40,397 bases of DNA. Origin: Roseinatronobacter domitianus (GTDB lineage Bacteria; Pseudomonadota; Alphaproteobacteria; Rhodobacterales; Rhodobacteraceae). Each line of letters starts with the position of its first letter. Position 1 is the first letter of the stretch. Under the pieces are notes generated by a model. The model was not told the DNA's origin and made no database searches. It saw only the letters and a list, made by a program, of their open reading frames with translations. Shown piece after piece: positions 13,827 through 29,576 of this stretch. Position numbers and translations under genes: made by a program. The DNA lies in NCBI RefSeq assembly GCF_023336755.1, contig NZ_JALZWP010000020.1:1-40397 (forward strand), given 5' to 3'.

Positions 13827-14906
13827 TCAGGCGCTTTCCAACGCCGCAACAACGGCATCGCCACAGGCAACCGTCCCGGCCGTGCCGCCCAGATCGGCAG
13901 TCCGCTGGGCCGGGTTTGCCAGCACTTTTTCTATGGCGGCAACAATCGCCGCCGCCGCATCGGGGTGGCCCAGATGCTCCAGCATCATCGCGCCGGCCCA
14001 GATCTGGCCAACGGGGTTCGCAATACCCTTGCCGGCAATGTCCGGCGCAGAGCCGTGGACCGGTTCGAACAATGATGGATAGTCGCGTTCGGGGTTGATG
14101 TTGCCAGAAGGCGCAATCCCAATGGTGCCGGTGCAGGCTGGCCCAAGATCAGACAAGATATCGCCAAACAGATTGGACGCAACGACCACGTCGAACCAGT
14201 CGGGGTGCAGCACGAAATGCGCGGTCAGAATGTCTATGTGGAACTTGTCGACCATGACATCCGGGTAGCCCTTGGCCATGTCCACCACCCGTTCGTCCCA
14301 ATAAGGCATGGTGATGGAAATACCGTTGGACTTGGTTGCAGAGGTCACATGCTTCTTGGGGCGTTGCTGCGCCAGATCGAAGGCGAATTTCAGAACCCGG
14401 TCAACGCCAACGCGTGTCATCACGGTTTCCTGCAACACGGTTTCGCGCTCGGTCCCCTCGAAAATGCGACCGCCAATAGAAGAATATTCGCCCTCAGTGT
14501 TTTCGCGCACGACCCAGAAATCTATATCACCCGGCTCGCGGCCAGCCAAAGGCGATGGCACGCCCGGCATAAGGCGCACGGGGCGCAGGTTGATATACTG
14601 GTCATATTCGCGCCGAAACTTGAGCAAAGACCCCCAGAGAGACACATGGTCGGGCACCGTGTCGGGCCAGCCTACAGCACCAAAATACAGCGCGTCGCTA
14701 TCGCCAATCCGCGATTTCCAATCATCCGGAAGCATCTGGCCATGGGCCGTGTAATACTCGGCTGACGCGAAATCATGCATGTCAAACTGGAGCCCGATGT
14801 CGAATTTGCGCGCGGCGGCTGACAGCACTTTCAGCCCCTCGGGCACAACTTCTGTTCCAATCCCGTCGCCGGGAATAACTGCAATGCGGTAAGAGTTGCG
14901 GCTCAT
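13827..14906 (-). CDS. tartrate/D-malate/isopropylmalate-type decarboxylating dehydrogenase
   Basis: An NAD-dependent beta-decarboxylating dehydrogenase of 359 residues. Family landmarks: IAVIPGDGIGTEVVPEG, NLRPVRL with the substrate-carboxylate arginine, VVRENTEGEYSSIGG, the metal-binding NLFGDILSDLGP, and EPVHGSAPDIAGKGIANP. The pattern FGAVGWPDTVPDHVSLWGSLL is closest to the tartrate dehydrogenase/D-malate dehydrogenase (TtuC/DmlA) group rather than LeuB. Its start overlaps the stop of the PdxA-like gene (ATGA), so it is the third gene of a leftward operon. It probably oxidises and decarboxylates a 2-hydroxy di- or tricarboxylate made by the upstream MmgE/PrpD protein. The exact substrate is not known. 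Confidence 0.88.
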   Translation of the reverse strand: MSRNSYRIAVIPGDGIGTEVVPEGLKVLSAAARKFDIGLQFDMHDFASAEYYTAHGQMLPDDWKSRIGDSDALYFGAVGWPDTVPDHVSLWGSLLKFRREYDQYINLRPVRLMPGVPSPLAGREPGDIDFWVVRENTEGEYSSIGGRIFEGTERETVLQETVMTRVGVDRVLKFAFDLAQQRPKKHVTSATKSNGISITMPYWDERVVDMAKGYPDVMVDKFHIDILTAHFVLHPDWFDVVVASNLFGDILSDLGPACTGTIGIAPSGNINPERDYPSLFEPVHGSAPDIAGKGIANPVGQIWAGAMMLEHLGHPDAAAAIVAAIEKVLANPAQRTADLGGTAGTVACGDAVVAALESA

Positions 14907-15937
14907 GCGGATTGATCCTCTGGTTTGGGGCCATGCTGCGCGATGGCAAGTTTCGTAGCCAACCGGATTGCGGTTATGAACGCGCCGGCATCGGCAATAC
15001 CCTGCCCGACAATATCATGTGCGGTGCCATGGGCGGGGGTTGTAAAGATAATGGGCAGGCCTGATGTCACCGTCACGCCCTTGTTGAACCCCTTGAGCTT
15101 GGTCGCGATCTGGCCCTGGTCATGATACATCGCCAACACGCTGTCATATTCCCCGGCAAACGCCTTCAAATAGACCGTATCGGACGGAAACGGACCATCG
15201 CAACAGATACCCTCGGCCTGCGCGGCCTCTACGGCGGGGCGGATGATGTCTATCTCTTCGGTGCCAAACAGCCCGCCTTCGCCATTATGCGGGTTCAGCG
15301 CCGCGACAGCAATGCGCGGCGCGGCAATCCCGGCGCGGCGCAACATGGTGTCGGTCAGGTGCAGCGCCTCGCTTATCCGCTCCGGGGTAATCAGATCCAG
15401 CGCCTCGCGCAGGCTGACATGAGAGGTGACGCGGCTCATCCATTGCCCGTCCAGCACGTTCATTTCGCGAAATACGCCGTTGAAACCCAGCAAATGCGCA
15501 AAAAGCTGATGCTCGTCCTTGAAGCGCCAGCCCCCGTCAAACATTGCCTTCTTGTGCAAGGGCGCAAAACAAATGCCATGGGCATGGCCCGCGCGCGCGA
15601 TGTCCACCGCGGCCTTCAAGGTATCGCCCACCCGCGCGCCAATTTCGGGGTCGGGCGCCCCCAGCACGAACTTGGCCGGGTCCATATTGCCAAGGTCTAT
15701 CATGGGAATGGCGCTCTGGTCGTGCCGGGCATCCTCGGCGCTGCGGATCAGGTCAATCGTTAATGAAACACCGGCCTGGGTCATCCCCATCTCCAGGACA
15801 CGGCGGTCCCCCAGCACCACAATATCGGCACTGTCACGGATATCGCTTTGCGCAAGGATTCGGGCCGTCATCTCTGGCCCGATCCCGGTCGGGTCGCCTG
15901 TTGTCAGCACAAGCGTTGGGCGAAACTCATCTGTCAT
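14903..15937 (-). CDS. PdxA family dehydrogenase (probable catabolic paralog)
   Basis: Homologous to 4-hydroxythreonine-4-phosphate dehydrogenase, a zinc/NAD enzyme that oxidises and decarboxylates a hydroxy acid phosphate. The 344 residues include TTGDPTGIGPEM, the metal histidines in DEHQLFAHLLG, SHVSLREAL and AMYHDQGQIATK, and GTAHDIVGQGIADAGAF. The fold is related to isocitrate/isopropylmalate dehydrogenases. Placed between an MmgE/PrpD gene and a tartrate-dehydrogenase-like gene and coupled to the latter, it is more likely a catabolic PdxA2-type enzyme (as in threonate or erythronate use) than the vitamin B6 enzyme. No RsmA or SurA neighbours, typical of biosynthetic pdxA, are seen. Confidence 0.85.
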   Translation of the reverse strand: MTDEFRPTLVLTTGDPTGIGPEMTARILAQSDIRDSADIVVLGDRRVLEMGMTQAGVSLTIDLIRSAEDARHDQSAIPMIDLGNMDPAKFVLGAPDPEIGARVGDTLKAAVDIARAGHAHGICFAPLHKKAMFDGGWRFKDEHQLFAHLLGFNGVFREMNVLDGQWMSRVTSHVSLREALDLITPERISEALHLTDTMLRRAGIAAPRIAVAALNPHNGEGGLFGTEEIDIIRPAVEAAQAEGICCDGPFPSDTVYLKAFAGEYDSVLAMYHDQGQIATKLKGFNKGVTVTSGLPIIFTTPAHGTAHDIVGQGIADAGAFITAIRLATKLAIAQHGPKPEDQSA

Positions 15938-15961
15938 GTCCGTGGTCCCTTATTGTATCAT

Positions 15962-17416
15962 TCAGGCCGGATCGCGCCATGTCAGCAAGTCCATCAGAAC
16001 GCTGACATCTGGCAGCGTCTCTACCTTTGCGACAGTGTCAATCAGCGCTTGCTGCCGTGTCTCTGACAAAAGCCCGGCGGCGCAATCATTGAACTTGCCA
16101 GCCAGTTCAGCATCGCTCAGCGGATTATGCGGGCTGCCACGATAATTCTCATCCGCCCAGCGCGAAAGGGTGCGCCCATCGCGTGTGACAACATCAATCC
16201 GAGAGCGTATCCTGTCCCATCCCATCGCCTCTATCTCGGCGTCAAACCGGGTCTCTATGCGGCGCTGCATGGATTGGCAGCCGTCAGAGGCCACGAATTC
16301 GTCGGTGAACTCTGTCTTGCCCGCGCTGCCCCGCAAAATGATCGCAGAGAGCAGGAAAGCGAAGGAAAACTTGCCCTCCAGCTCGGTTTGAGCAACGTGA
16401 TAGCGGATCGGGCCAAGGACGTTGCTGCCTGCATTCAACGTGACCTTTTCAATATCGTCCGGGGTCAGCCCTTCTTCGGCCATCAGAAATTTCATCGCAT
16501 CCATGCTCGGGTGGGTCAGCACGCCAGAGGGATATGGCTTTATGCTGACACCGGGTGACAACATGGCATGCGGCGCACCGAACCTGTCGCGCACTTGCGA
16601 CGGATCACCGCCAGGCCCGGCAATCGCCAGATACCCCCAACGCCCGTCAAGCGCCTCTTCGTTAGATGACAGCCCTTCGCGCGCCAGCAACGCAGCGGTC
16701 ACACCGTTCTGGGCGGCGCGGCCAACATGCAGCGGTTTGGTCATTGTCCCGAAGCCGGCGCGAATGCCAGATGCCATGGACGCCGCAATGCCCAAGGCGC
16801 GCGCAGTGGTCGCAGCATCCAGCCCCAACATATGCGAGGCAGCGGCGGCAGCGGCAAAGGTTCCAATCGTCCCGGAGGTGTGGAATCCCCTCATGTAATG
16901 GTCGGGATCAATGGCTTCGGCCACCTTGCAGCCCACCTCGAACCCAGCGGTAAAGGCGCCAACCAGTTTCATGCCGGTAACTGGCGCGCCAGTTTCCAGC
17001 GCCACAAGATCAGCCAGCACCAGCGCTGCGGTCAGCGGTGGAACGGTGGGGTGCATCAGCAGCCCATAGGGGCGCCCCGGCCCCTCTGCCAATTGTGTAT
17101 CATCCCAATCCATTGCGTGGCCTGCCGTTCCGGCCCAAAGCGCAGCGGCGGGCGCGGGCAGACGCAGGCCGCTCAACCCCAGAACGCGCGCCTGCCCGGA
17201 CCCGCCAATCGTTGTAAGATGCCGCAGAAGCGGTGCCATTCCGGGCTGGTCGGTTCCGGCGATCATAACTGCCAAACCATCCAGAATGCAGCGGCGCGCA
17301 AGATGCAGGGTTTCGGCATCTAGCGCCGTTGCGCTGTGCCCAACAGTAAAACGCACGGCAGCATCGGTCAGGCCGGACAGGTGGTCCCAGCTTGCGCCTT
17401 CGGTCTGAATGGTCAT
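15962..17416 (-). CDS. MmgE/PrpD family protein, paralog A
   Basis: A member of the 2-methylcitrate dehydratase / cis-aconitate decarboxylase / iminodisuccinate epimerase superfamily, 484 residues. Active-site segments: HAMDWDDTQL, LMHPT, RGFHTSGTIGTF, TMTKPLHVGRAAQNG and SIKPYPSGVLTHPSMD, which contain the Asp, Thr, His and two Lys known from IRG1-type enzymes. ATG at 17416 is chosen for its AAAGGAG site; the open frame continues to 17476. It is first in a leftward three-gene operon with PdxA-like and tartrate-dehydrogenase-like genes. A palindrome shared with two other promoters lies 84 bp upstream. It resembles paralog B (23795-25231) more than paralog C. Reaction: dehydration, decarboxylation or epimerisation of a polycarboxylate; which one is not decided by sequence. 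Confidence 0.9.
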   Translation of the reverse strand: MTIQTEGASWDHLSGLTDAAVRFTVGHSATALDAETLHLARRCILDGLAVMIAGTDQPGMAPLLRHLTTIGGSGQARVLGLSGLRLPAPAAALWAGTAGHAMDWDDTQLAEGPGRPYGLLMHPTVPPLTAALVLADLVALETGAPVTGMKLVGAFTAGFEVGCKVAEAIDPDHYMRGFHTSGTIGTFAAAAAASHMLGLDAATTARALGIAASMASGIRAGFGTMTKPLHVGRAAQNGVTAALLAREGLSSNEEALDGRWGYLAIAGPGGDPSQVRDRFGAPHAMLSPGVSIKPYPSGVLTHPSMDAMKFLMAEEGLTPDDIEKVTLNAGSNVLGPIRYHVAQTELEGKFSFAFLLSAIILRGSAGKTEFTDEFVASDGCQSMQRRIETRFDAEIEAMGWDRIRSRIDVVTRDGRTLSRWADENYRGSPHNPLSDAELAGKFNDCAAGLLSETRQQALIDTVAKVETLPDVSVLMDLLTWRDPA

Positions 17417-17499
17417 GTGGGTTCTCCTTTGCGCGGTCGTGCCTTGCAGCGGAACGACCAGATATTCCATTGCCATCTAAGTGGCATCCAACCTTGTAA

Positions 17500-17511
17500 A
17501 TTGTCAACAAT
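17500..17511. promoter_or_regulatory. candidate GntR operator, copy 1
   Basis: ATTGTCAACAAT, a 12-bp near-perfect palindrome in the 272-bp gap between the leftward MmgE/PrpD operon and the rightward dehalogenase gene. On the minus strand it contains TTGACA, a -35 hexamer for the MmgE/PrpD operon. Its reverse complement occurs exactly at 23697 and an 11/12 match at 23491. The TTGT-N2-ACAA form is typical of FCD-group GntR sites. Confidence 0.65.
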
Positions 17512-17688
17512 AGTGTTGCGATTTTGCGCATTTCAGAATTAAATGTCCGCAAAGCTGCATCCAGCAACCCGGGCAACGACAGAGACTCGGTTTCTTTTGT
17601 TCTTTTATTTAAAGATATGGCCGGGAATTCACAGTCTGCGGAGCGAAGGATGCTTGGGCAGGTTTGTCTACAATACAGGAGATCCACA

Positions 17689-18630
17689 ATGCAGAACGAG
17701 ATGCCGGAATTGACGCAACCAACACGGTTGATGGAGGGGTTTCGCTACGAACGCATGCGCAGCTCTGGCGCAGAGATCAACGTCGCAATCGCCGGGGACG
17801 GGCCGCCTTTGCTATTGCTGCATGGCAATCCGCTGACCCATGTAAGCTGGCACAAGATCGCGCCTGCGCTTGCCCAGAGCTTTACGGTCATCGCGCCCGA
17901 TCTGCGCGGCTATGGTGACAGTTCCAAGCCTGACGGCGGCGCAGAGCATGAAGCCTACAGCTTTCGGGCAATGGCGCAGGATTTTCTGGAGATCATGACA
18001 ACGCTGGGGTTTGACCGCTTTGCGGTTGCGGGCCATGACCGCGGCGCGCGCGTTGCCTTTCGTTTGGCGCTGGATGCCCCAGAGCGCATTACCAAGATCG
18101 CCGCACTCGATATTGTGCCGACCTACAATGTGCTCTCTCAGGTCAGCCTTGGTTGGGGGCTGGAAGCCTATCACTGGTTTTTCATGGCACAAAAAGCGCC
18201 GTTTCCCGAAGACCTGCTATCGGCTGACCCGGAATATTACATCCGCTACAAGCTGAACAAGAAGAATGTCGGCCTAGAGATTTTCACACCAGAGGCGATG
18301 GCAGAATACATCCGCTGCACCACACGCGACCAAATTCATGCGGTCTGCGAGGATTACCGCGCCACGGTCACGCTGGATTTCGAGATGGACAAAAGCGACC
18401 ATGCCGCGAACCGCAAGATTAACTGCCCGGTGATGGTTTTATGGGGCAGCAACAGCCATTGCGGGCGCCATTTCAAGCCGCTGGAAGCCTGGGGCGAATG
18501 GGCTGACAATGTGCGCGGCGCGGCAATCCCGACCGGGCATTACCCGGCAGAACATCGGCCAGACATTGTCTACAGGGCATTTTGGCAGTTCTTTTCCGGT
18601 CAGGAACCAGATTTCGGGGGCGAGCCATGA
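17689..18630 (+). CDS. alpha/beta hydrolase, haloacetate (fluoroacetate) dehalogenase-like
   Basis: Predicted to displace halide from a 2-haloacid such as fluoro- or chloroacetate. The 313-residue hydrolase has HGNPLTHVSWHKIAPAL (oxyanion hole), DLRGYGDSS, and GHDRGARVAF, where the nucleophile is D117 rather than serine, followed by carboxylate-binding R118 and R121. The halide pocket residues H162-W163 are present in EAYHWFFMAQ, and CEDYRATVTLDFEMDK is diagnostic for this group. H284 in GHYPAEHRPD is the catalytic histidine. ATG at 17689 has AGGAG 8 nt upstream; the longer frame from 17524 lacks a ribosome site. The stop overlaps the next start (ATGA), coupling it to the rhodanese protein. 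Epoxide hydrolases share the Asp nucleophile, but the RxxR and HW residues favour dehalogenase. Confidence 0.85.
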   Translation: MQNEMPELTQPTRLMEGFRYERMRSSGAEINVAIAGDGPPLLLLHGNPLTHVSWHKIAPALAQSFTVIAPDLRGYGDSSKPDGGAEHEAYSFRAMAQDFLEIMTTLGFDRFAVAGHDRGARVAFRLALDAPERITKIAALDIVPTYNVLSQVSLGWGLEAYHWFFMAQKAPFPEDLLSADPEYYIRYKLNKKNVGLEIFTPEAMAEYIRCTTRDQIHAVCEDYRATVTLDFEMDKSDHAANRKINCPVMVLWGSNSHCGRHFKPLEAWGEWADNVRGAAIPTGHYPAEHRPDIVYRAFWQFFSGQEPDFGGEP

Positions 18631-20198
18631 AGGTCGTAACACCACAAGAGGCCTCGAACCTGTTTCATGCCGGTGGCGAGGTAGCGTTTCTGGACGTGCG
18701 CGAGGCTGGACAATTTGGCGAGGCGCATCCGCTGTTTGCAATCCCCCTGCCCTTTTCCGTGCTCGAGAGCCGCGTTCAAAAATTGGTTCCTCGCCGCGAT
18801 GTGCCTGTCCTGCTGCTGGATGCCGGTGACGACATTTCCACGCGTGCGGCGCAATGCCTTGCGGCGTTGGGCTACACAAACCTGCACATAATCGCGGGCG
18901 GAATGCCCGGTTGGGCCGCAGCAGGCTTGGGTGTGTATAAAGGGGTCAATGTGCCATCGAAAACGCTGGGAGAGTTGGCGGAAGAACTTTGGCACCCGAA
19001 CATGATTACCCCGCAGGAACTGGCGCAATGGGCCAATGCCAAGCAAGATTTCAGCTTCTTTGACGCGCGCCCGCCGGCGGAATATCAGAAGATGCGGGTT
19101 CCGGGGTCTGTCTGTTTGCCGAACGCAGAGTTGGCCCATCGTGCCGCAAGCCTGGGCGTTCTGGAGCAAGCGCCACTGGTTATTACCTGTGCAGGCCGCA
19201 CGCGCGGCATTGTCGGCGCAATCGGGATGCGGATAGCGGGGTATGGCGGGCCGGTCATGGCTTTGGAAAACGGAACCCAAGGCTGGGCGCTGGCAGGCGA
19301 AACACTGGAGCGCGGCGCCACGGCCGCCCCCTTCCCTTCGCTCGACGCCGCCGCCGCAAACGCATCGCGGCAAGCGGCAGATCGGATTATCGCCCAATTT
19401 GGTCTGACAGAGGTCACGATCGAGGAAGCCGCCGCCCTTTTGCGCGATCAGGGGCGGACGAGCTACCTGTTTGATACGCGCTCGGCGTTGGAAGCGGAAA
19501 ATGACCCTGTTCCGGGCGCAGTGCATGCACCCAGCGGGCAGGTCACGCAGGCCACAGATCAATGGATCGGCGCCCTTCGGTCGCGCGTGGTGTTGTGTTG
19601 TGATACCGGGCTTCGCTCGGCGCTGGCTGGGTTCTGGTTGAAACAACTGGGCTATGACGTGTTCGTGCTGCGCTTGACGGCGGATCGGTCTGCCCTGCCA
19701 AACCCAGCCCCGGACACGCAGCCGCCGTCCTTGCCAACACTGACCGCGCAGGATGCGCTTCAGGCACTTGCGGACGGTGCGGTGCTGGTGGACTTGCGCG
19801 GCTCCATGGCGTTCCGCAAGGCTCATGTCGCCCAGGCAATCTGGGCCTGTCGGCCCGGTTTGGCTGCGGCACTCTCCGGGCATGAGGACCGATTGGTGTT
19901 GTTGCTGGCCGATGACATGACCCAAACCGCTTGGGTGGCGCAAGACCTGCACAAGGCCGGGCATGCCCGCGTCATGGCGGTTGCAGGCGGCATGGACGCG
20001 CTGGTGCAAGCAGGCGCGCCCCTTGTGTCAAGCCCCGACATCCCGGCTGATGAACGCTGCATTGACCATCTGTTCTTTGTGCATGACCGCCATGATGGGA
20101 ACCTTGATGCCTCACGCCGCTATCTGGAATGGGAAACCGGCCTTGTCGCGCAATTGAGCAAGGCCGAGCGTGAAGAATACCATCTGATCGCACCGTGA
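18627..20198 (+). CDS. four-domain rhodanese-like sulfurtransferase
   Basis: A 523-residue protein of four rhodanese modules in tandem. Domain 1 (about 1-105): FLDVREAGQFGEAH, with the active-site cysteine replaced by D65 (LLLDAGDD). Domain 2 (about 125-235): FFDARPPAEYQ, with C188 in CAGRTRG. Domain 3 (about 260-360): LFDTRSALEA, with C325 in CCDTGLR. Domain 4 (about 370-470): LVDLRGSMAFRKAHV, with Asp in LLADDMTQ. Modules 2 and 3 should be active; 1 and 4 should not. ATG at 18627 overlaps the dehalogenase stop, so the two are made together. Its tail resembles that of single-operon rhodanese/cysteine-metabolism proteins with a conserved RYLEWE. The sulfur donor and the link to dehalogenation are unknown. 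Confidence 0.88.
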   Translation: MKVVTPQEASNLFHAGGEVAFLDVREAGQFGEAHPLFAIPLPFSVLESRVQKLVPRRDVPVLLLDAGDDISTRAAQCLAALGYTNLHIIAGGMPGWAAAGLGVYKGVNVPSKTLGELAEELWHPNMITPQELAQWANAKQDFSFFDARPPAEYQKMRVPGSVCLPNAELAHRAASLGVLEQAPLVITCAGRTRGIVGAIGMRIAGYGGPVMALENGTQGWALAGETLERGATAAPFPSLDAAAANASRQAADRIIAQFGLTEVTIEEAAALLRDQGRTSYLFDTRSALEAENDPVPGAVHAPSGQVTQATDQWIGALRSRVVLCCDTGLRSALAGFWLKQLGYDVFVLRLTADRSALPNPAPDTQPPSLPTLTAQDALQALADGAVLVDLRGSMAFRKAHVAQAIWACRPGLAAALSGHEDRLVLLLADDMTQTAWVAQDLHKAGHARVMAVAGGMDALVQAGAPLVSSPDIPADERCIDHLFFVHDRHDGNLDASRRYLEWETGLVAQLSKAEREEYHLIAP

Positions 20199-20224
20199 GA
20201 TCCAGCCGGAGCAGTATTCATAGC

Positions 20225-20286: not shown

Positions 20287-21804
20287 TCAGCTTGCGCCCA
20301 TCTGCACACCTGCCTTGCGCTTGCGCCGCATTTTGGAAAATGCAGACAATCCGAAGGACACCACCATTAAAGCCAGAATAAGCAACGCGCCCGGACGTTC
20401 TAACGCATAGGCCAGTTCGCCCCCGCTAATCTGGTAGGTCCGCAACAGGTTACCTTCGACAAGATTGCCCAGAATAAGCCCCACAACAGCGGCTGCCACC
20501 GGATAGTTGTAGCGCACCATTCCCCAACCGATGACCGAGAAAACCGCCAGCGTGATCGGGCCAGACGCAGTGCCATTGATCGCATAAGACCCAAACAGCG
20601 CCACCACCAGAACACTGGGGATAAGATACCGCATCGGCACCCTGACAATGTAGCTGGCAATGTAGACAAACCCCAGCCCCACGCCCAGCAACAGCAGCGC
20701 CTGTGCAAAATTCGACATGATGATCGCATAAACAACGTCTTTGTTATTGGCGATAAAGCTGGGGCCACCGACCACATTGTGCATCGCAAAGGCGGCCAGC
20801 AGGATTGCCGTTGCCCCACCGCCGGGAATACCAAGCGCCAGCATTGTCGCCATAGCCCCCCCTTCGGAAGACGAGTTGGCACTTTCGGCGGCAATCACGC
20901 CCTTTGGGTTGCCTTTGCCGAAAGTGTCACCATCCGGCGCATTGCGGCGGGCTTCCGAATAAGACAGCAGGTTCGAAATTGACGAACCAACACCGGGGAT
21001 CGAACCGATCACCACCCCGATAAGTGCCCCACGTCCAATGATCGTCTTGTGCTGGAATGCTTCACGAAATCCGCCCGTGATCTTGCGCATGGAGATCCTG
21101 CGCAAATCTTCGTCTTCGATCAGGTGTTTGGTATTCACAAGGTTCAGAAGTTGACTTGCGGCAAGCAGGCCCATCATCGCAGGGATGGTCGGGACACCAT
21201 CGAGCAGCCACGGAATATCCATAGTGCCGCGAATGTATCCGGCAGAGTTCATGCCGACCGTGCCCAGCAACAAGCCGAATGTCCCCGCCAGCAGCCCACG
21301 CGCAATGGACTCTCCGGCCAGAGAACCAAGCAGCATCAGGCCCCATATCGCAACAAAGAACAGCTCTAACGGGCCCATCTTCAGCACGATGCCCGAAACC
21401 GGTTCGATCAGGAACATGAGCAGGATGTAGCTGACCAGCGTTCCTATGACAGACGAGGCCAGCGCGATGCCCAGCGCCTCATTGTGGCGACCTTGCCGCG
21501 ACATGGGATAGCCATCAAAGGTTGTCGCGACGGCAGAGGATGTGCCGGGAATATTCATCAAGATGGCCGGAACGGACCCACCAAACCCTGCGCCCGTATA
21601 GATCGAGGTCAGAAAGATGATCGCTGGCAGGAAATCCATATAAAGCGTCATGGGCAGGAAGATTGCCATGGCCATCGTGATCGAAATGCCCGGCATGGAC
21701 CCAAAGAACAGCCCCAACAGCAGGCCGGGGATCACGAAAATCCACGCTGACCATGAAGAGGACAGGATTGTAAACGCATCGCTAAGTTCGGCGAGATCGA
21801 TCAT
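20287..21804 (-). CDS. tctA: tripartite tricarboxylate transporter permease TctA
   Basis: The large membrane subunit of a TTT-family importer, 505 residues with about 11-12 hydrophobic segments. Family motifs: FFGSMPGISITMAMAIFLP near the N terminus and its internal repeat GSIPGVGSSISNLLSYSEA, then GNPKGVIAAESANSSSEGG and LGIPGGGATAILLAA. It uses an ion gradient to take up a carboxylate delivered by TctC. It lies 9 nt after tctB and is the last gene of the tctCBA operon. A GTGAGG sequence precedes the ATG. Family substrates are citrate, tartrate, terephthalate and other di- or tricarboxylates. Confidence 0.95.
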   Translation of the reverse strand: MIDLAELSDAFTILSSSWSAWIFVIPGLLLGLFFGSMPGISITMAMAIFLPMTLYMDFLPAIIFLTSIYTGAGFGGSVPAILMNIPGTSSAVATTFDGYPMSRQGRHNEALGIALASSVIGTLVSYILLMFLIEPVSGIVLKMGPLELFFVAIWGLMLLGSLAGESIARGLLAGTFGLLLGTVGMNSAGYIRGTMDIPWLLDGVPTIPAMMGLLAASQLLNLVNTKHLIEDEDLRRISMRKITGGFREAFQHKTIIGRGALIGVVIGSIPGVGSSISNLLSYSEARRNAPDGDTFGKGNPKGVIAAESANSSSEGGAMATMLALGIPGGGATAILLAAFAMHNVVGGPSFIANNKDVVYAIIMSNFAQALLLLGVGLGFVYIASYIVRVPMRYLIPSVLVVALFGSYAINGTASGPITLAVFSVIGWGMVRYNYPVAAAVVGLILGNLVEGNLLRTYQISGGELAYALERPGALLILALMVVSFGLSAFSKMRRKRKAGVQMGAS

Positions 21805-22305: not shown

Positions 22306-22332
22306 GCGGCGCCCTCTCTTGGACATAGAAGA

Positions 22333-22376: not shown

Positions 22377-23375
22377 TCAGGAGCCTTGCAGAATGCTCAG
22401 ATGCTGTTCCATGACAGCAGCAGTCGCCAACAAGGACCGGTTCGATACTTCCGGCCCGAACCAGTCGGTTGCAAGTTGCGCACTGGAAAGCGCCTCAATA
22501 ACCTCTGGTGCCTTGCTTGTCTCTTCAACCGCAGACAGGATCGTCTGGTAAATTTCGGGCGACCCCTCAACCAGTGACGCATGAACGCCCCAGCCGCGCT
22601 GCGAGCCAAGCACGAAATCTGCCCCAGGTGCCACTTCGGTTACGATCGCGCTGCCCCAGTTGTCGCGCGGCGCATCGTCAAAGATCAGCAGTGGAACGAT
22701 CTTATCTGCCAGTGGCAAGAAGCCCTGACCGCCGACAAGCGCAATATCCACCACATTGCCAGCCACTGCGTTGCGTGCAGGGCCGCCACCATCATAGGTC
22801 ACAAGGCGCAACTCATCGCGCGAAATGCCGACCGTATCGGCCAGAAGCATAAGGTTGACCAGATCAGCCGATGCAGGCTGGATACCAATTGTCAGCGACC
22901 GAGGGTCTGCTTTCAGTTGGTTGATGACGTCTTCGATCGATGTGATGCCCGATTCTGTGCTGGTCGCCATCATGGTGTAATCACGCGACGGCAGGTTCAT
23001 CATGTGGAAATCTGTCACCGCAAACGGAGCATTCTGCGTCAGCACGTTCAGGGGCAGAAACGGTGCAGCCGAGGTGCAAAGCAGCGTGTAACCATCATCT
23101 GGCTGCTGAAGGAAATAGGAATGCCCCAACAGCGCACCAGCGCCACCACGGTTGATGATGTTCAGCGGCTGGCCAAGGCGTTGCGACAGAAACGGTGCAA
23201 AGGCGCGGGCCAGACGGTCATTATAGCCGCCCGTGTCAAAAGGAACGACAACATTGATCGGACGCGACGGGTAGCTGTCTTGTGCAAATAGGATGGACGG
23301 TGACGCCACCGATGCAGCTGCAAGGGTGCCCCCTGTCAGCTTCAGCAAGCTCCGCCGGTTATACTTGATAGTCAT
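22377..23375 (-). CDS. tctC: tripartite tricarboxylate transporter substrate-binding protein TctC (Bug family)
   Basis: The periplasmic receptor of the TTT importer, 332 residues. A Tat-like signal opens it: NRRSLLKLTGG, then an Ala-rich stretch ending at FAQ. The mature part starts YPSRPINVVVPFDTGG, the Bug-family hallmark, with NRGGAGALLGHSYFL following. ATG at 23375 has a strong GGAGGAGG site upstream; the frame is open to 23501. It is the first gene of the leftward tctCBA operon. A candidate GntR operator overlapping a TTGACA hexamer lies 116 bp upstream. The ligand is probably a carboxylate used by the neighbouring MmgE/PrpD enzymes. Confidence 0.93.
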   Translation of the reverse strand: MTIKYNRRSLLKLTGGTLAAASVASPSILFAQDSYPSRPINVVVPFDTGGYNDRLARAFAPFLSQRLGQPLNIINRGGAGALLGHSYFLQQPDDGYTLLCTSAAPFLPLNVLTQNAPFAVTDFHMMNLPSRDYTMMATSTESGITSIEDVINQLKADPRSLTIGIQPASADLVNLMLLADTVGISRDELRLVTYDGGGPARNAVAGNVVDIALVGGQGFLPLADKIVPLLIFDDAPRDNWGSAIVTEVAPGADFVLGSQRGWGVHASLVEGSPEIYQTILSAVEETSKAPEVIEALSSAQLATDWFGPEVSNRSLLATAAVMEQHLSILQGS

Positions 23376-23490: not shown

Positions 23491-23502
23491 ATTGTCAACA
23501 AA
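23491..23502. promoter_or_regulatory. candidate GntR operator, copy 2
   Basis: ATTGTCAACAAA, matching the copy at 17500 in 11 of 12 bases. On the minus strand it includes TTGACA, with a TATCGT sequence 16 bp further on, a plausible promoter for tctC. Confidence 0.6.
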
Positions 23503-23696
23503 ATAGATTTGAATCATATTTTCTTAACGATATTCCCGATGACTCTGCAAGCCATCCAAACCCAGACAGGATGGCCGCAGCTTGGCCATAACGACAATAA
23601 TACGCGCTAAATAGCTATTTTTTGAACATTCTTGTTATATCCACACTATCAGTCGACAGCACTCCCCAACTTTTCTTGCACATAGCCATCACGCAT

Positions 23697-23708
23697 ATTG
23701 TTGACAAT
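23697..23708. promoter_or_regulatory. candidate GntR operator, copy 3
   Basis: ATTGTTGACAAT, the exact reverse complement of the copy at 17500. It contains TTGACA on the plus strand, 17 bp from a TCATGT sequence, a plausible promoter for the rightward MmgE/PrpD-B operon that starts at 23795. Confidence 0.65.
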
Positions 23709-23794
23709 CATGCGCTGTGTTGGTCATGTTGTCGGCAACAGTGAACAGGCGCACGCCTGTTCGCGCCACTCAGCGATTTTACAGGAGGAATGCC

Positions 23795-25231
23795 ATGAAC
23801 AAGACCGTCACGGAAAACCGGGGTGCCGCCGGAGCAAGCTATGATTCGGGCCTGACAGAGGAAGTCGCGCAGTTCGTGCATGACACAAACCTGTCCGACC
23901 TTGGCGATGTGGTGGTCGAAAACGGCAAGAAATCCATCCTTGACGGGATCGGGCTTGCGCTGTCTGGCTCGGTCGCCGCATCCGGAGAGATGTGCCGTCG
24001 CCAGATGGCAGATATTGGCGCGCCGTCCGGCAGCGCGACGGTCATCGGGTCTGACATGAAAGTGCCGCCCCGCTTTGCCGCTTTCTGCAATGGCGTCGGC
24101 ATTCATGCGGATGACTTTGACGACACCCAGCTGGCTGTTGCCAAGGACCGGGTCTATGGCCTGCTGACGCACCCGACCGCCCCCGCTCTGCCCGCCGCGC
24201 TGGCCCTGAGCGAAGATCGTGGCGCCACCGGCGCAGAGATGATGCTGGCCTATCACATTGGTGTCGAGGTCGAGTGCAAAATCGCTGAAGCGATAAATCC
24301 GCGCCACTACCAGCACGGGTTTCATGCCACCGCAACCTGTGGCACCTTCGCCGCTGCGGCAGCCGCAGGGCGGCTGATGGGTCAGGATATAGAGACACTT
24401 CAGCGTGCGCTGTCGATCGCCGGCAGCCAATCCGCCGGGCTACGCGAGAATTTCGGCACCATGACCAAACCGTTCCACGCGGGCCGGTCTTCGGAAAGCG
24501 GCGTTGTTGCGGCGCAGTTTGCGGCATATGGCTGGACCGCAGCGGGCAACATTCTTGAAGCGCCGCGCGGATTTTTCCAAGCGGCAGGCGGCGGGTATGA
24601 CACCGACGCGATTCATGGCAAGCTTGGCAAGCCCTGGACCTTCGCTGACCCTGGCGTGTCCATAAAGCCGCATCCATCCGGGTCGCTCACCCATCCCGGC
24701 ATGACCGAAATGCTGCGACTGATCCAGGAACATGGCATCACATCGGCCGATGTTGTGCGCGTCCGGGTTGGCACCAATTCCAACATGCCAAACGCCCTGA
24801 TCCATCATAATCCGCGCAACGAATTGCAGGCCAAGTTCTCGATGGAGTTCTGCATGGCCATTCTGCTTCTGGAAGGGCGCGCGGGCCTGCCTGAATTCAC
24901 CGACGAAACGGTGATGCGACCCGATGTGAAAGAAATGATGGCCAAGGTTGATTTTGTGGTGGACGACCGCGCCGAAGCGGCAGGCTATCACCTGATGACA
25001 ACCTACCTTGATATCGAACTGAAGGATGGCCGCACAGTTAGTGGCATGGCCGATTTCGGCAAGGGCAGCCCTGCGAACCCCATGACCTATGCAGAGGTTG
25101 CGGACAAGTTTCATGGCTGTGCCGAATTTGCCAAATGGGACAAGGTCAAAGCTGACGAGATTGTTGCGATGGTGGCCGAACTCGACCGCTTGCCCAACAT
25201 CGCGGGGCTGATGGCCCTGACCCGGCGCTAA
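23795..25231 (+). CDS. MmgE/PrpD family protein, paralog B
   Basis: A 478-residue member of the MmgE/PrpD superfamily. Active-site segments are intact: HADDFDDTQL, LLTHPTAPAL, HGFHATATCGTFAAA, TMTKPFHAGRSSESG and SIKPHPSGSLTHPGM. These hold the Asp/Thr/His/Lys set seen in IRG1 (cis-aconitate decarboxylase). A shared EAINPRHYQHGFH block makes it close to paralog A (EAIDPDHYMRGFH). ATG at 23795 has AGGAGGA 7 nt before it. It opens a rightward operon with an AbrB-type membrane protein, an SDR, paralog C and a dehydrogenase, divergent from tctCBA. It probably acts on the imported polycarboxylate; dehydratase, decarboxylase or epimerase activity cannot be separated here. Confidence 0.9.
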   Translation: MNKTVTENRGAAGASYDSGLTEEVAQFVHDTNLSDLGDVVVENGKKSILDGIGLALSGSVAASGEMCRRQMADIGAPSGSATVIGSDMKVPPRFAAFCNGVGIHADDFDDTQLAVAKDRVYGLLTHPTAPALPAALALSEDRGATGAEMMLAYHIGVEVECKIAEAINPRHYQHGFHATATCGTFAAAAAAGRLMGQDIETLQRALSIAGSQSAGLRENFGTMTKPFHAGRSSESGVVAAQFAAYGWTAAGNILEAPRGFFQAAGGGYDTDAIHGKLGKPWTFADPGVSIKPHPSGSLTHPGMTEMLRLIQEHGITSADVVRVRVGTNSNMPNALIHHNPRNELQAKFSMEFCMAILLLEGRAGLPEFTDETVMRPDVKEMMAKVDFVVDDRAEAAGYHLMTTYLDIELKDGRTVSGMADFGKGSPANPMTYAEVADKFHGCAEFAKWDKVKADEIVAMVAELDRLPNIAGLMALTRR

Positions 25232-25245
25232 GTCTGGCATCGAAG

Positions 25246-26322
25246 GTGGTTCGCCCTATCCCCGACATAAGCGCGCGGCAGCGACCGTCTTGGGTCTGGT
25301 TGGCCCCAAGCTACGCTTTCGCGGCGCTGGTCGGGTATGGTGCCACCTTTCTGGGGGTGCCGCTACCCTGGATGATCGGGCCGTTCGTGGTCTTTGCGCT
25401 GTTATCTGTGGGCGGGGTTTCGGCCCCGCTTGTGCCGCATGGTCGCGAACTGGCGCAGGTCTCTATCGGGCTGGTGATAGGGCTTCGCTTCACGGCACCG
25501 GTCATCGCTGCGACCTTTGCGCTACTGCCCCAAATGATCGGCGCGGCGATCTACCTTCTGGTTGCCACAACGCTTGCGGCGCTTCTGTTCCGAAAACTGG
25601 CGGGTGTTGATCCTGTGACCGCGTTCTTTGCCACTGCCGCAGGCGGCGTGGCGGATATGGCGCATGTCGCCCAGAGCTATGGTGGCGCGCCCACATCTGT
25701 TGCGGTGGTGCATGCGCTGCGCGTTTCGCTGGTTGTCGCCATCGCGCCACTGGTCGCACTTGGGGTAGCCGAAAGGCCCGACCACATCGCGGTCGTGCAA
25801 GACGTTAACCTGCTCGCGCTGATGGGTGGGTTTGTTTTTGCCTATCTTGTGGCGCGGGCGCTCAAGCCAACGGCGTTGCCCAACCCTTGGTTCATTGGGC
25901 CAATTCTGGGTGGCGCTTTGCTGGCCGTTGCCGGATTGGACATGATTGTGGTGCCCTTCTGGCTAATTGCAGCGGCGCAAGTGGTGCTGGGGGTCTGGCT
26001 GGGCTGCCAGTTCAAACGCGAGCTTCTTTCGGCGCTGCCGCGTGTCACCGCCTCTGGTGTCGCAACGGGGCTGTTCTTGATCGGAGCCGCGCTGTTGGGG
26101 GCGGCAATGCTCAGTTCTGTGTCGGAGCTGAGTTTCTTGACCGCCTTTCTGTCTTTGGTACCGGCATCGGTGGCAGAGATGGTCCTGATTGCCAAATTTA
26201 TGAATCTCGACGCCGAGATCATCGCAACCTTTCACGTGATGCGGATTCTGGTCGTGTCCACCACACTCCTGTGGGTCTACCGCATCTACCTCAAACTAGG
26301 GAGATTCTCCAATGAACCTTGA
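25246..26322 (+). CDS. AbrB family membrane protein
   Basis: A 358-residue integral membrane protein with two repeated halves of hydrophobic helices (AbrB duplication type; older records call it a putative ammonia monooxygenase regulator). Family landmarks: GVPLPWMIGPFVV, LAQVSIGLVIGLRF, TAAGGVADMAHVA with GAPTSVAVVHALRV, and the second-half PNPWFIGPILGGALLA. The start is a GTG 14 nt after the MmgE/PrpD-B stop with only a weak ribosome site; no better start is available. It overlaps the SDR gene by 11 bp. The family is often linked to TTT importers and MmgE/PrpD genes, so a transport or export role in the same pathway is likely but unproven. Confidence 0.85.
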   Translation: MVRPIPDISARQRPSWVWLAPSYAFAALVGYGATFLGVPLPWMIGPFVVFALLSVGGVSAPLVPHGRELAQVSIGLVIGLRFTAPVIAATFALLPQMIGAAIYLLVATTLAALLFRKLAGVDPVTAFFATAAGGVADMAHVAQSYGGAPTSVAVVHALRVSLVVAIAPLVALGVAERPDHIAVVQDVNLLALMGGFVFAYLVARALKPTALPNPWFIGPILGGALLAVAGLDMIVVPFWLIAAAQVVLGVWLGCQFKRELLSALPRVTASGVATGLFLIGAALLGAAMLSSVSELSFLTAFLSLVPASVAEMVLIAKFMNLDAEIIATFHVMRILVVSTTLLWVYRIYLKLGRFSNEP

Positions 26323-27103
26323 ATACGAAAACCGCCGCGTTCTGATCGTCGGAGGCAGCTACGGCATTGGGCTGGCCTCTGCCAAACTGGCCGCAGCAGA
26401 GGGCGCGCGCGTGGCGATTGTCTCTCGCTCTGCGGAGAATATCGAAAAGGCCGCGGCCCAGATTGAAGCTGAAACCGGCCACGCGCCCCTGACGATTGTG
26501 GCCGATGTAACCGAAGAAAACGCGGCACAAACGATTGCCGATGCGGTCTTGCAGGCTTGGGGCGGGCTGGATGTGCTGGTCACTGCGGTAGGTGGCAGCA
26601 TACGATCGGGCTTTGCCGACCTGACGGATGAACAGTGGTTGGGCAACTACACGTTCAACGTGCTGTCCACCGTGCGCACCATCCGCGCCTTTCTGCCCAT
26701 GTTGGGCGAAGGGTCAGCCCCTGCCATCGTGATGCTTGGTGCCGCCGCATCCAAGATGCCGTATGCGCATCAGGTTGTGTCGAACGTGCACAAGGCAGGG
26801 CTGCTGGGTCTGAACAAGACACTGGCCGCAGAGCTTGCGGCGGACGGAATTCGCGTGAACCTTGTTGCACCGGGCCGGACTCTGACACCGCTTTGGACAA
26901 ACCGTGCCGACAAGCTGGCCACCGACGAAGGCCGCACCCGCGACGAAGTGTTGTCGGACTTTTCCAAAGACATTCCGCTGGGCCGTTTCGGCGAAGCGGT
27001 TGAAATCGCCCGCATGGTGATCTGGCTTGCCAGCCCCTGCGCCAGCTACGTCACAGGCCAGGCCGTGAACGTGGATGGCGGAATCGCCCGCGGGCTGCTC
27101 TGA
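26312..27103 (+). CDS. short-chain dehydrogenase/reductase family protein, atypical active site
   Basis: A 263-residue SDR. The nucleotide-binding motif GGSYGIGLASAKLA is present, as are FNVLSTVR (the structural Asn) and the C-terminal PCASYVTGQAVNVDGG. The catalytic residues are unusual. The normal Ser sits in a VMLGAAAS context without a clear serine, and the Tyr of YxxxK is a serine (SNVHKAG), leaving only the Lys. A divergent SDR group with SNxxRAG in this place is known from many genomes but poorly studied. The start overlaps the AbrB gene by 11 bp and follows AGGGA. Either a non-redox role or a changed mechanism is possible. It lies 17 nt before paralog C. Confidence 0.85.
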   Translation: MNLEYENRRVLIVGGSYGIGLASAKLAAAEGARVAIVSRSAENIEKAAAQIEAETGHAPLTIVADVTEENAAQTIADAVLQAWGGLDVLVTAVGGSIRSGFADLTDEQWLGNYTFNVLSTVRTIRAFLPMLGEGSAPAIVMLGAAASKMPYAHQVVSNVHKAGLLGLNKTLAAELAADGIRVNLVAPGRTLTPLWTNRADKLATDEGRTRDEVLSDFSKDIPLGRFGEAVEIARMVIWLASPCASYVTGQAVNVDGGIARGLL

Positions 27104-27120
27104 AACAAGGAATTAAAACA

Positions 27121-28506
27121 ATGAGTGAACATCACGCTACGCCATCCGGCACCCCCGATGTGACCAACCAGCTTGCCGAATGGATTGTCGGTCTGAACGG
27201 CGCGGATATTCCTGCAGAGGTCCGGCAAGAGGGCTTGCGCACCTTTGTCAACTGGGTTGGCTGTGCCGTTGGCGGCGCCCGCCATGAAACCGTAGACTGC
27301 GCCCTGCGCGCGCTGATGCCGTTCAGCGGCGGCAAGACCGCCACCATCCTTGGCCGGCCAGAGCGGATAGACACGCTGCACGCGGCGCTGATTAATGGCA
27401 TTACCAGCCATGTGCTGGACTATGACGACACCCATCTGAAAACTATCATCCACCCTGCCGGGCCAGTGGCCTCGGCGTTGCTGGCGCTGGCAGAAGCGCG
27501 CCCGGTTTCCGGCGAGGATTTCTTGACCGCCCTTATCATCGGGGTAGAGGTCGAATGCCGGATCGGCAATTCCGTTTATCCGCACCATTATGATCGCGGC
27601 TGGCATATAACGGGAACCGCAGGCGTTTTCGGGGCAGCGGCCGCCGTGGGCAAGATGATTGGCCTGAATGTGCAACAGATGCGTTGGGCGTTGGGTCTTG
27701 CGGCGTCTCAATCGGCTGGCCTGCGCGAAATGTTCGGCACCATGACCAAGAGCTTTCATCCCGGTCGTTCTGCCCAGAATGGTCTGACCGCCGCTTTGTT
27801 GGCAGAGGCCGGTTTCGACAGTTCCGAACGCGCGCTGGAAGCGCCACGCGGCTTTGCCACCGTCATGTCCGACAAGCAGGATTGGAGCGAAATCCTGGAC
27901 GGTCTGGGCACGCATTGGGAAGCGGCGCTGAACAGCTACAAACCCTTTGCCTGCGGGATTGTCATCCATCCCACAATTGACGGCTGCCAGCAGGTGCGCG
28001 CAGAGATCGGCGATCGTGTCACCGAGATTGAGAAGGTCCATCTGACAACACACCCGCTGGTTCTGGAGCTGACCGGCAAGCGCACGCCCTCGACCGGGCT
28101 GGAAGGCAAGTTCAGCGTGTTCCACTCGGCGGCCTGCGCTTTGCTGCGGGGCGACGGGGCACCAACAGCGTTCACGGACGAAATTGTCAACCTGCCCGAA
28201 ATCACGAACCTGCGTGACCGGATTGACGCAACAGCGGACCCCGATTGCCACGAAGCCTCTGTTACCATTGATATAACTTTCCGCGACGGCAGCACTCTGC
28301 GCAAACATGTCGAACGTGCAATCGGCAGCCGTGATGTGCCACTGTCAAACGAGCAGCTGAACACGAAGTTCCTGGATCAGGCATCGCTTGTGATTGGGCA
28401 AGCATCGGCACAAGCATTGCTGGACCTGTCATGGACAACGGCCAAGCTGGATGATGTGGCAGATGTCACGCGCCTGTCGGCAGCAGGGCAAGACGCTGCA
28501 AAATGA
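27121..28506 (+). CDS. MmgE/PrpD family protein, paralog C
   Basis: A third MmgE/PrpD protein, 461 residues. Active-site segments: HVLDYDDTHL, GWHITGTAGVF, TMTKSFHPGRSAQNG, YKPFACGIVIHPTIDG and GKFSVFHSAAC. The C-terminal Lys region (KPFACG) differs from the KPxPSG of paralogs A and B, so it forms a different subgroup and likely has a different substrate or reaction. ATG at 27121 follows AAGGA. The stop overlaps the start of the next dehydrogenase (ATGA), so this pair should act together, for example isomerisation or hydration followed by oxidative decarboxylation. Confidence 0.9.
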   Translation: MSEHHATPSGTPDVTNQLAEWIVGLNGADIPAEVRQEGLRTFVNWVGCAVGGARHETVDCALRALMPFSGGKTATILGRPERIDTLHAALINGITSHVLDYDDTHLKTIIHPAGPVASALLALAEARPVSGEDFLTALIIGVEVECRIGNSVYPHHYDRGWHITGTAGVFGAAAAVGKMIGLNVQQMRWALGLAASQSAGLREMFGTMTKSFHPGRSAQNGLTAALLAEAGFDSSERALEAPRGFATVMSDKQDWSEILDGLGTHWEAALNSYKPFACGIVIHPTIDGCQQVRAEIGDRVTEIEKVHLTTHPLVLELTGKRTPSTGLEGKFSVFHSAACALLRGDGAPTAFTDEIVNLPEITNLRDRIDATADPDCHEASVTIDITFRDGSTLRKHVERAIGSRDVPLSNEQLNTKFLDQASLVIGQASAQALLDLSWTTAKLDDVADVTRLSAAGQDAAK

Positions 28507-29576
28507 GCACAAGAACCCTGAAAATTGGCGTTCTGAACGGGGACGATATCGGTCACGAAATCGTCCCCGCTTCGGTGCGCATTGCGAAGGCCGCAGCACG
28601 CGCGGCGGGGCAGCCCATAGACTGGGTGGACCTTCCCATCGGGCGCACAGCACTTGACACCCACGGCAGCACAATGCCGTCAGGAACACTGGAAACCCTG
28701 TCACAACTCGACGGCTGGATACTTGGACCAATCGGGCATCGCGATTATCCCAATGTGCCGGAAGCGATCAATCCCCATCCCATCTTGCGCAAACATTTTG
28801 ACCTGTTCGCCAATGTGCGCCCAACCCGGTCGTATCAGGGGATAGGCTGCATATATGACGACATCGACCTTGTCATTGTGCGCGAGAACAATGAGGGCTT
28901 TCAGCCTGACCGCAACGTGTTCATGGGGTCGGGCGAATTTCGGCCAAACCCCGACCTGTCCATCTCTGTCCGGGTGATCTCTCGCGAGGGGTCACAAAAG
29001 GTGGTGCGTGCGGCGCTGGAATTGGCGCGCGCACGCAGCAAGCGTCTGACACTGGTGCACAAAAACACGGTGTTCAAACTGGGCTGCGGCATGTTTGTCG
29101 AAGCGGCCTACCAGGTGGCGGCAGAGTATCCCGATGTCACGGTTGACGAGGTGATTGTCGATACCATGGCGATGCGGCTGGTGCGCGATCCGCAAAGTTT
29201 TGATGTGATCGTGACCACCAACATGTTCGGTGACATCCTGACGGATGAAGCCGCCGGGTTGGTCGGTGGGCTTGGAATGGCACCGGGCCTGTGCATTGGG
29301 CGCGGGTCCGTTGCGATGGCGCAAGCCACGCATGGTTCAGCGCCCGACATTGCCGGAAAGGGCATCGCGAACCCATATGCCATGATTGAATCCACGCGGA
29401 TGCTGTTTGACTGGCTGGGACGCCAGCGCAACGCACCAGAAGCGGTAGACATGGCACAACGGATGCGCAACGCGACCGATCATGCGCTGGGCAATGCCGC
29501 CACGCGCACACCCGACATTCGCGGCCACGCAACACAAGACGGCATGGTACAATCCATTCTGGAGGCATTGGAATAG
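28503..29576 (+). CDS. isocitrate/isopropylmalate dehydrogenase family protein
   Basis: A 357-residue NAD-dependent beta-decarboxylating dehydrogenase. Motifs: IGVLNGDDIGHEIVPAS, FANVRPTRSY with the carboxylate-binding Arg, IVRENNEGFQ, HKNTVFKLGCGMF with the catalytic-type Lys, TNMFGDILTDEAAGLVGG for the metal, and THGSAPDIAGKGIANP. The RENNEGFQPDR loop differs from the RENTEGEYSS of the paralog at 13827, implying a different substrate. It is coupled by a 4-base overlap to paralog C and ends the operon before the GntR gene. A likely substrate is a 2-hydroxy acid with a beta-carboxylate. Confidence 0.88.
   Translation: MSTRTLKIGVLNGDDIGHEIVPASVRIAKAAARAAGQPIDWVDLPIGRTALDTHGSTMPSGTLETLSQLDGWILGPIGHRDYPNVPEAINPHPILRKHFDLFANVRPTRSYQGIGCIYDDIDLVIVRENNEGFQPDRNVFMGSGEFRPNPDLSISVRVISREGSQKVVRAALELARARSKRLTLVHKNTVFKLGCGMFVEAAYQVAAEYPDVTVDEVIVDTMAMRLVRDPQSFDVIVTTNMFGDILTDEAAGLVGGLGMAPGLCIGRGSVAMAQATHGSAPDIAGKGIANPYAMIESTRMLFDWLGRQRNAPEAVDMAQRMRNATDHALGNAATRTPDIRGHATQDGMVQSILEALE

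Follow-up and report, generated by a model that had tools for sequence, protein, structure and literature searches.

The window analysed here is a stretch of 40,397 nucleotides of Roseinatronobacter domitianus, corresponding to the entire contig C20 (NZ_JALZWP010000020.1) of a 3.36 Mb genome whose completeness is rated 100%. At ~13.8-30.4 kb it harbours an island coding for three MmgE/PrpD enzymes (A, B and C), two beta-decarboxylating dehydrogenases (TTC and IDH2), a PdxA-like enzyme, an alpha/beta hydrolase, a rhodanese, a tripartite tricarboxylate (TTT) transporter, an AbrB-type membrane protein, a protein of the short-chain dehydrogenase/reductase (SDR) fold and a GntR regulator. We propose with moderate confidence that, under the control of the GntR protein, the island serves the catabolism of C4-type dicarboxylates substituted on C2 or C3, and that MmgE/PrpD epimerases would feed stereospecific oxidative decarboxylases. 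The island is real and conserved and is, in kind, a catabolic cluster of known superfamilies; its gene content, the conserved residues of its enzymes, their joint conservation and a palindrome common to its promoters are direct observations. An earlier note on this DNA had named the MmgE/PrpD, dehydrogenase, PdxA-like, SDR, TctABC and AbrB-type genes, all of which are present as open frames, but it missed the dehalogenase-type hydrolase, the four-domain rhodanese and the palindrome, and the GntR gene lies just outside its range. The catabolic route for a polycarboxylate that it suggested is well supported by the joint conservation, the palindrome and the lack of grouping with methylcitrate dehydratases.

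Paralogs A (15962-17416, minus strand), B (23795-25231, plus strand, with an ATG at 23795 behind AGGAGG) and C (27121-28506, plus strand) exceed the gathering scores of both PF03972 in their N-terminal (1.8e-79 for C) and PF19305 in their C-terminal parts. They keep the active-site segments, as the earlier note had stated, with the DxDDT motif, the His (HP), the Tyr, a His, two Lys and a second His all in place. We built a FastTree phylogeny of 188 MmgE/PrpD sequences with three references and no methylsuccinate isomerase; the references were Escherichia coli PrpD, the mammalian cis-aconitate decarboxylase (CAD) and the iminodisuccinate (IDS) epimerase, the last two partial. In this tree, A, B and C belong to clades of 14, 87 and 49 members with supports of 0.986, 0.767 and 0.998, respectively, A and B together form one clade of 101 members with a support of 1.0, and each reference falls outside the three clades. 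The catalytic loop, which runs from the DDT motif to the catalytic His, comprises exactly 14 residues in all 101 members of the A+B clade, vs. six in 49/49 members of the C clade and in the IDS epimerase, five in CAD and seven in E. coli PrpD. Three further MmgE/PrpD matches are found in the same genome, on contigs C19 and C29, with two on C29 of which one is short; the loop pattern could be read in just one of the 30 sequences of the C29 clade. On the Pacificitalea plasmid pDY25-A (L107 1-19917), five genes annotated as MmgE/PrpD are stacked with two TTT systems within ~20 kb.

The column that holds the Tyr base of the two-base epimerases is a Tyr in all members of the A, B and C clades (14/14, 87/87 and 49/49), and also in the C19 paralog. 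It is an Asp in CAD, an Asn in E. coli PrpD and a His in 30/30 members of the C29 clade. The other active-site columns vary slightly within the clades; the His that follows the KP segment, for instance, is kept in 12/14 sequences of A, 87/87 of B and 46/49 of C. According to PMC12290011, the two bases are His99 and Tyr145 in the IDS epimerase, a His102 and Tyr148 pair has been proposed for methylsuccinate isomerase, and a one-base proposal has been reported for CAD. Because this pair is kept in A, B and C, it supports the notion that they are epimerases. With residue roles taken from the same source, the carboxylate-binding residues of the IDS epimerase are found in all three paralogs as well. 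The IDS epimerase is also the best sequence match of A and B in the PDB, and it comes second to the Bacillus subtilis IRG1 for C, at identities of only 29-31%.

The putative partners of the paralogs in the island are three dehydrogenases. TTC (13827-14906, minus strand, PF00180) passes the tartrate dehydrogenase model TIGR02089 with 560 bits for a cut-off of 470.4 and, among the NCBIfam models listed, it is the sole island enzyme scanned that exceeds an equivalog cut-off. IDH2 (28503-29576, plus strand, PF00180 at 3.6e-82) stays under the cut-offs of all 16 NCBIfam models that it matches, and the solved proteins most closely related to it are homoisocitrate and isocitrate dehydrogenases. An NPHPI motif is kept in 58/58 IDH2 orthologs. 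We take its helix to be the one that reads the side group of the substrate; two polar residues in it are more reminiscent of isocitrate than of isopropylmalate dehydrogenase.

The PdxA-like protein (14903-15937, minus strand, PF04166) and its orthologs keep the three metal-binding His residues, the Lys and the Asp of the family in 53/53 sequences. In the same 53 sequences, the positions of E. coli PdxA that we assume to line the substrate site are changed, with His136 replaced by Glu, Thr137 by His (so that GHT becomes DEH), Asn283 by Thr and Arg292 by Phe or Tyr. A 4-phosphate substrate is therefore unlikely, and we rejected a vitamin B6 role on these grounds. The protein scores 282.0 bits with the PdxA equivalog model, below its cut-off of 290.35. 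All three annotated relatives that we examined nevertheless give it the name of a vitamin B6 enzyme. In some relatives the PdxA-like gene is adjoined by a gene pair of the chromate transporter family (L030 17944-19060, L108 20908-22009 and L109 20001-21036), possibly an anion exporter.

To determine which genes travel together, we scanned for relatives with B, which yielded 345 of them, and analysed the best 80 loci of these, with 10 kb flanks. Genes were located by BLAST of start-to-stop or stop-to-stop frames and counted at identity thresholds of our own choice, truncated loci included. The loci span Alpha-, Beta- and Gammaproteobacteria, with many metagenome bins, and some are likely duplicate records (L023/L128 and L065/L125), so that the counts are not all independent. 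IDH2 is present at 53 of the 80 loci, the PdxA-like gene at 51, the hydrolase at 49, the rhodanese at 39, C at 37, AbrB at 31, TctA at 28, TctC at 25, TTC and GntR at 23 each and the SDR at 21. With looser thresholds and no formal background rate, at least one decarboxylating dehydrogenase gene accompanies B at 73/80 loci, and at 55 of the 57 that extend over 20 kb or more; no such gene was seen in the stretches around the C19 and C29 paralogs of the genome itself. C and IDH2 adjoin in 23 of the 33 loci that hold both, and in the window they are coupled by a 4-base overlap (28503-28506). In the Variovorax locus L121, a TctC gene, a C-like PrpD gene (49%) and an IDH2 ortholog (71%) follow each other without B in the stretch. 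Two architectures can be distinguished among the loci. SDR, GntR and rhodanese genes are associated with the first, the Tct type, and the second, the ABC type, has a transporter resembling Afu/PhnS. At 14 loci (L012 2750-3904 and 13 others) we also found a gene cluster represented by an enolase-superfamily (MR_MLE) protein, which resembles sugar-acid dehydratases with scores below the cut-offs.

The distribution of the island is patchy, which suggests horizontal spread. Orthologs of B occur in 6 of 289 sampled genomes of the class, and queries of same-genus genomes with A and C retrieved C orthologs of 67-76% identity in 4/36 and at best a 41% match for A. Composition gives no sign of a recent transfer, the GC content being 0.589 in the island and 0.592 and 0.593 in the flanks.

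A palindrome, ATTGTYRACAAT, occurs in both divergent promoter regions of the island. Exact copies are found on the plus strand in the gap between A and the hydrolase gene (ATTGTCAACAAT, 17500-17511) and upstream of B (ATTGTTGACAAT, 23697-23708). Two further plus-strand copies have one mismatch each, a possible second site before the hydrolase gene (TTTGTCTACAAT, 17663-17674) and one upstream of TctC (23491-23502). Thus counted, the window contains four matches to ATTGTNNACAAT with at most one mismatch, vs. 0.91 expected, a number reached in 1 of 100 shuffles. Only three exact copies exist in the 3.36 Mb genome, two of them within the island, and the reversed pattern used as a control gave two per strand. 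The third copy was rejected as a further target, as it sits inside an aminotransferase gene. Among the relatives, a TTGTNNACAA site is found near the B gene at 24 of the 80 loci, for ~2.6 expected. When TTGTYRACAA was searched in all 80 loci, 58 of 68 sites were located at most 300 bp from the 5' ends of island genes, with 14.0 expected, and nine permuted palindromes occurred 0-6 times each; identity thresholds and gene ends are approximate in these counts, and any formal p-value would be too small because the loci are related. The GntR/FCD protein encoded at the end of the island (29689-30423, plus strand, PF00392 and PF07729) is the proposed reader of this palindrome.

We infer the substrate, each reaction and the epimerase rather than hydratase action in the scheme that follows. 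The substrate would be an acid of the malate, tartrate, alkyl-malate or isocitrate type, imported by TctABC. A, B and C would act as two-base (His and Tyr) enzymes at the carbon beside a carboxylate, most likely as epimerases. The resulting stereoisomers would be taken up by TTC, IDH2 and the PdxA relative as stereospecific oxidative decarboxylases, to yield 2-oxo acids and CO2. The dehalogenase-type hydrolase would probably feed the scheme by converting an alpha-substituted precursor into a hydroxy acid. There is a precedent for such a division of labour, as methylsuccinate isomerase serves an (R)-preferring CoA-transferase (PMC12290011). By analogy, C and IDH2 look like a pair made of an epimerase and its stereoselective partner. 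A, the PdxA-like enzyme and TTC look like a second unit in the window. The joint conservation, the adjacency of C and IDH2, the remodelled PdxA-like site and the enrichment of the palindrome all support the proposal of an epimerase-fed dicarboxylate pathway. The idea of the earlier note that the paralogs handle different stereoisomers fits with the Tyr and His pair and with the pairing of C and IDH2, from which it would follow only by inference; a pairing of A with the PdxA-like gene shows little conservation.

TctA (20287-21804, PF01970 at 5.8e-119), TctB (21814-22326, PF07331 at 1.8e-10) and TctC (22377-23375, PF03401 at 2.1e-11), all on the minus strand, each exceed the Pfam cut-offs and together make up a complete TTT transporter. 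TctC, which has Bug/TctC-type matches in the PDB, harbours a Tat-like signal as judged by eye. The AbrB-type gene (25246-26322, plus strand, PF05145 and TIGR03082) directly follows B in all 31 loci that hold both. The SDR-fold protein (26312-27103, plus strand, PF13561) is unusual, as the earlier note had stated. The Tyr of its Y-x3-K motif is replaced by Ser in 22/22 sequences, that of the window included, while the Lys is kept, and the window protein has an Ala where the spacing would put the catalytic Ser; the classical Ser-Tyr-Lys triad of SDRs is therefore lacking.

The hydrolase (17689-18630, plus strand) matches solved fluoroacetate dehalogenases over nearly its full length (3qyj at 3.3e-89 and 3r3u at 2.2e-83), and its solved relatives include a probable epoxide hydrolase. 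We aligned 54 sequences of at least 50% identity, the window protein included, all from MmgE/PrpD loci. In RPA1163 numbering, Asp110, Arg111, Arg114, Asp134, His155, Trp156, Tyr219 and His280 are invariant, so that the catalytic and halide-site residues of fluoroacetate dehalogenases are all kept in 54/54 sequences. In the same sequences, Trp185 is deleted, Arg212 is replaced by Ile and Ile253 by His. We take these positions to represent the nucleophile (Asp), the carboxylate-binding residues (two Arg), the His-Trp-Tyr halide site and, for Trp185, a determinant of pocket size. The accessible part of PMC12955510 makes no mention of four RPA1163 positions sought there. The rhodanese (18627-20198, plus strand, PF00581 in four stretches) is closest to the thiosulfate sulfurtransferase 1yt8 among solved proteins (1.3e-79), and its gene follows that of the hydrolase in 24 of the 33 loci that hold both.

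Several observations weigh against the epimerase-based proposal. An AlphaFold2 model of B (pLDDT of 83.3) matches the mouse and human CAD, the IDS epimerase and the B. subtilis IRG1 with E-values of 3e-27 to 2e-24, and its top match is the mouse IRG1/CAD rather than the IDS epimerase; the comparison of folds thus gives the epimerase no preference over CAD. The same active-site residues could also serve a dehydratase. A is found at just 9 of the 80 loci and adjoins the PdxA-like gene in only one of the four that hold both, and the palindrome was detected near B in no more than the 24 loci mentioned above. The PdxA-like gene and TctA are negatively associated, with TctA at 7/38 loci with the PdxA-like gene and at 14/19 without it, although in Tct-type loci the PdxA-like gene may be located outside the 10 kb flanks retrieved. 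The window holds both genes and, given the variable module content, it may combine two related modules. Lastly, the proposed scheme assigns no role to the rhodanese, the AbrB-type protein or the altered SDR.

Among other explanations, it is possible, if doubtful, that the paralogs are hydratases or dehydratases. They would shift a hydroxyl group between tertiary and secondary positions, as aconitase or isopropylmalate isomerase do, but with no Fe-S cluster. The products, 3-substituted malates of tri- or dicarboxylic acids, would then be decarboxylated by IDH2 and TTC. The position of C directly before IDH2, the kinship of IDH2 with homoisocitrate and isocitrate dehydrogenases and the membership of 2-methylcitrate dehydratase in the MmgE/PrpD family are all in line with this idea. 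However, the two-base Tyr present in all three clades is missing from the E. coli PrpD reference, and 2-methylcitrate dehydratases (E-values of 2e-17 or worse) rank behind CAD and the IDS epimerase as structural matches of B. We regard as rather unlikely a route centred on an alpha-halogenated dicarboxylate, in which the dehalogenase-type enzyme would replace the halide by a hydroxyl with inversion, the PrpD epimerases would make both enantiomers reachable and TTC would oxidize the malate-type product. It would account for the intact catalytic and halide sites of the hydrolases from PrpD loci, and also for their distribution. Relatives of at least 60% identity occur in three of the 289 sampled genomes of the class, all with B, and in the two other than ours PrpD and dehydrogenase genes are found close by. 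Among plasmid records, such relatives occur in only two, each of them a B island. Nevertheless, the hydrolase was not seen at 31/80 B loci, some of them truncated, nor at 17 of the 57 longer loci (20 kb or more), including reduced modules that have B and a PdxA-like gene. In addition, four more genomes contain relatives at 50-51% identity with B in only one of them, Trp185 is consistently deleted, and a probable epoxide hydrolase is among the solved relatives. Its boldest version appears somewhat less probable again. In this version, natural dicarboxylates with an alpha-halogen, possibly fluorine, would be degraded by a widespread pathway under GntR regulation. A dehalogenase-like subfamily with a modified and perhaps larger pocket would generate malate- or tartrate-type acids, the MmgE/PrpD epimerases would racemize precursors or products and the three oxidative decarboxylases would complete the breakdown.

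The presence of the rhodanese at 39/80 loci, its position behind the hydrolase and its closest solved relative, a thiosulfate sulfurtransferase, bring to mind sulfur-substituted dicarboxylates such as mercaptosuccinate or thioether acids, whose sulfane sulfur, once released, would be dealt with by the rhodanese. We consider this improbable, as the rhodanese was not seen at 41/80 loci and no thiol dioxygenase or sulfite enzyme is found among the Pfam-identified island genes. Slightly more improbable still is the degradation of aminopolycarboxylates akin to iminodisuccinate. The IDS epimerase is indeed the first or second sequence match of the paralogs, but the identities are low, the clades are separate and no C-N lyase was detected among the Pfam-identified island genes; a FumC-type lyase adjoins one relative, L068. 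As for propionate degradation by the 2-methylcitrate cycle, only annotation habit speaks for it, two MmgE/PrpD genes of one relative being labelled 2-methylcitrate dehydratase. With the NF042438 model of that enzyme, A, B and C reach 20.1, 44.5 and 41.5 bits for a cut-off of 950, and C reaches 34.1 bits with TIGR02330, whose cut-off is 458. The earlier note had reported prpBC to be absent, and genome-wide there is no match to prpB (TIGR02317, E<=0.001) and none over the cut-off for prpC (TIGR01800, best score 324.5 vs. 421.3 bits). On the basis of these scores, the gene searches and the tree, we rejected this cycle. The two outcomes that the earlier note had named as fatal to its reading, paralogs grouping with methylcitrate dehydratase alongside prpBC and a lack of joint conservation, were both sought and neither was observed. 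The paralogs do not group with the single, partial mammalian CAD reference either and differ from it at the Tyr position, but CAD is the top structural match of B.

Based on orientation and spacing, the island genes likely form two operons on each strand, A-PdxA-like-TTC and TctC-TctB-TctA on the minus strand, and hydrolase-rhodanese and B-AbrB-SDR-C-IDH2-GntR on the plus strand. Four-base overlaps also couple the hydrolase and rhodanese genes (rhodanese ATG at 18627, hydrolase stop at 18630) and the 3' end of the PdxA-like gene with the start of TTC (14903-14906). Judging from ribosome-binding sites and residues, the probable starts of four genes differ from those of their longest frames, namely 17416 rather than 17476 for A, 23375 rather than 23501 for TctC, 17689 rather than 17524 for the hydrolase and 18627 rather than 18582 for the rhodanese. 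Rfam and tRNA scans of the window gave no matches. Outside the island, the 10502-13002 region codes for a CoA-transferase III, an acyl-CoA dehydrogenase and a divergent LysR regulator (12857); the models that its genes match include those for glutarate CoA-transferase, glutaryl-CoA dehydrogenase and 3-sulfinopropanoyl-CoA desulfinase, all below cut-off. We excluded the LysR, CoA-transferase and acyl-CoA dehydrogenase genes from the island because they are present at only 2, 1 and 4 of the 80 loci, respectively. A separate plus-strand cluster (2962-10460), which looks like a sulfur or cyanate-related pathway, comprises genes for an NMT1-type ABC transporter, OsmC, an acyl-CoA-dehydrogenase-like protein, a rhodanese, a cyanate lyase and a ferredoxin-reductase-like protein.

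MmgE/PrpD homologs are carried by 19.2% of the prokaryote species searched in PMC12290011, and most of these proteins are uncharacterized. For two large clades of the family, a genetic context is now at hand along with a characteristic loop and a marker in promoters, so that their chemistry becomes testable. A clade with a full fluoroacetate dehalogenase active site is tied to dicarboxylate catabolism, which bears on the natural role of such enzymes and on the search for dehalogenases of larger acids; if the halogenated-dicarboxylate pathway exists, it would give a natural role to one branch of the defluorinase family. The PdxA branch with a changed substrate site should be re-annotated.

No description of this island was found in the titles or abstract openings of the open literature searched. 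Its components can nevertheless be compared with known systems. TTC resembles tartrate dehydrogenase, being well above the curated cut-off, but it is set in an island with MmgE/PrpD genes. The PdxA-like protein shares its fold family, metal ligands, Lys and Asp with PdxA and D-threonate-4-phosphate dehydrogenase (PDB 1ps7, 2hi1 and 6e85), unlike its substrate-site residues. Similarly, the hydrolase keeps the nucleophile, the two Arg, the halide site, the second Asp and the catalytic His of the fluoroacetate dehalogenase RPA1163 (PDB 3r3u), from which it departs by the three altered positions and by its island context. A, B and C have the catalytic residues of the IDS epimerase of Agrobacterium tumefaciens BY6 (PDB 2hp0), but this enzyme is a distant relative outside their clades, with a loop of 6 rather than 14 residues compared with A and B. 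A parallel in organization is the (S)-(R)-methylsuccinate isomerase/itaconate cluster of Pseudomonas and Cupriavidus, where, according to PMC12290011 and PMC9875883, an MmgE/PrpD isomerase with Tyr and His residues is found beside enzymes that prefer one stereoisomer, and where the Pseudomonas cluster has putative transporter genes, like the island. The adjoining methylsuccinyl-CoA dehydrogenase and itaconate genes of that setting were not found among the profiled window genes, nor were an itaconyl-CoA hydratase or a citramalyl-CoA lyase among those of the island. Instead of CoA enzymes, the partners of the MmgE/PrpD proteins in the island are decarboxylating dehydrogenases.

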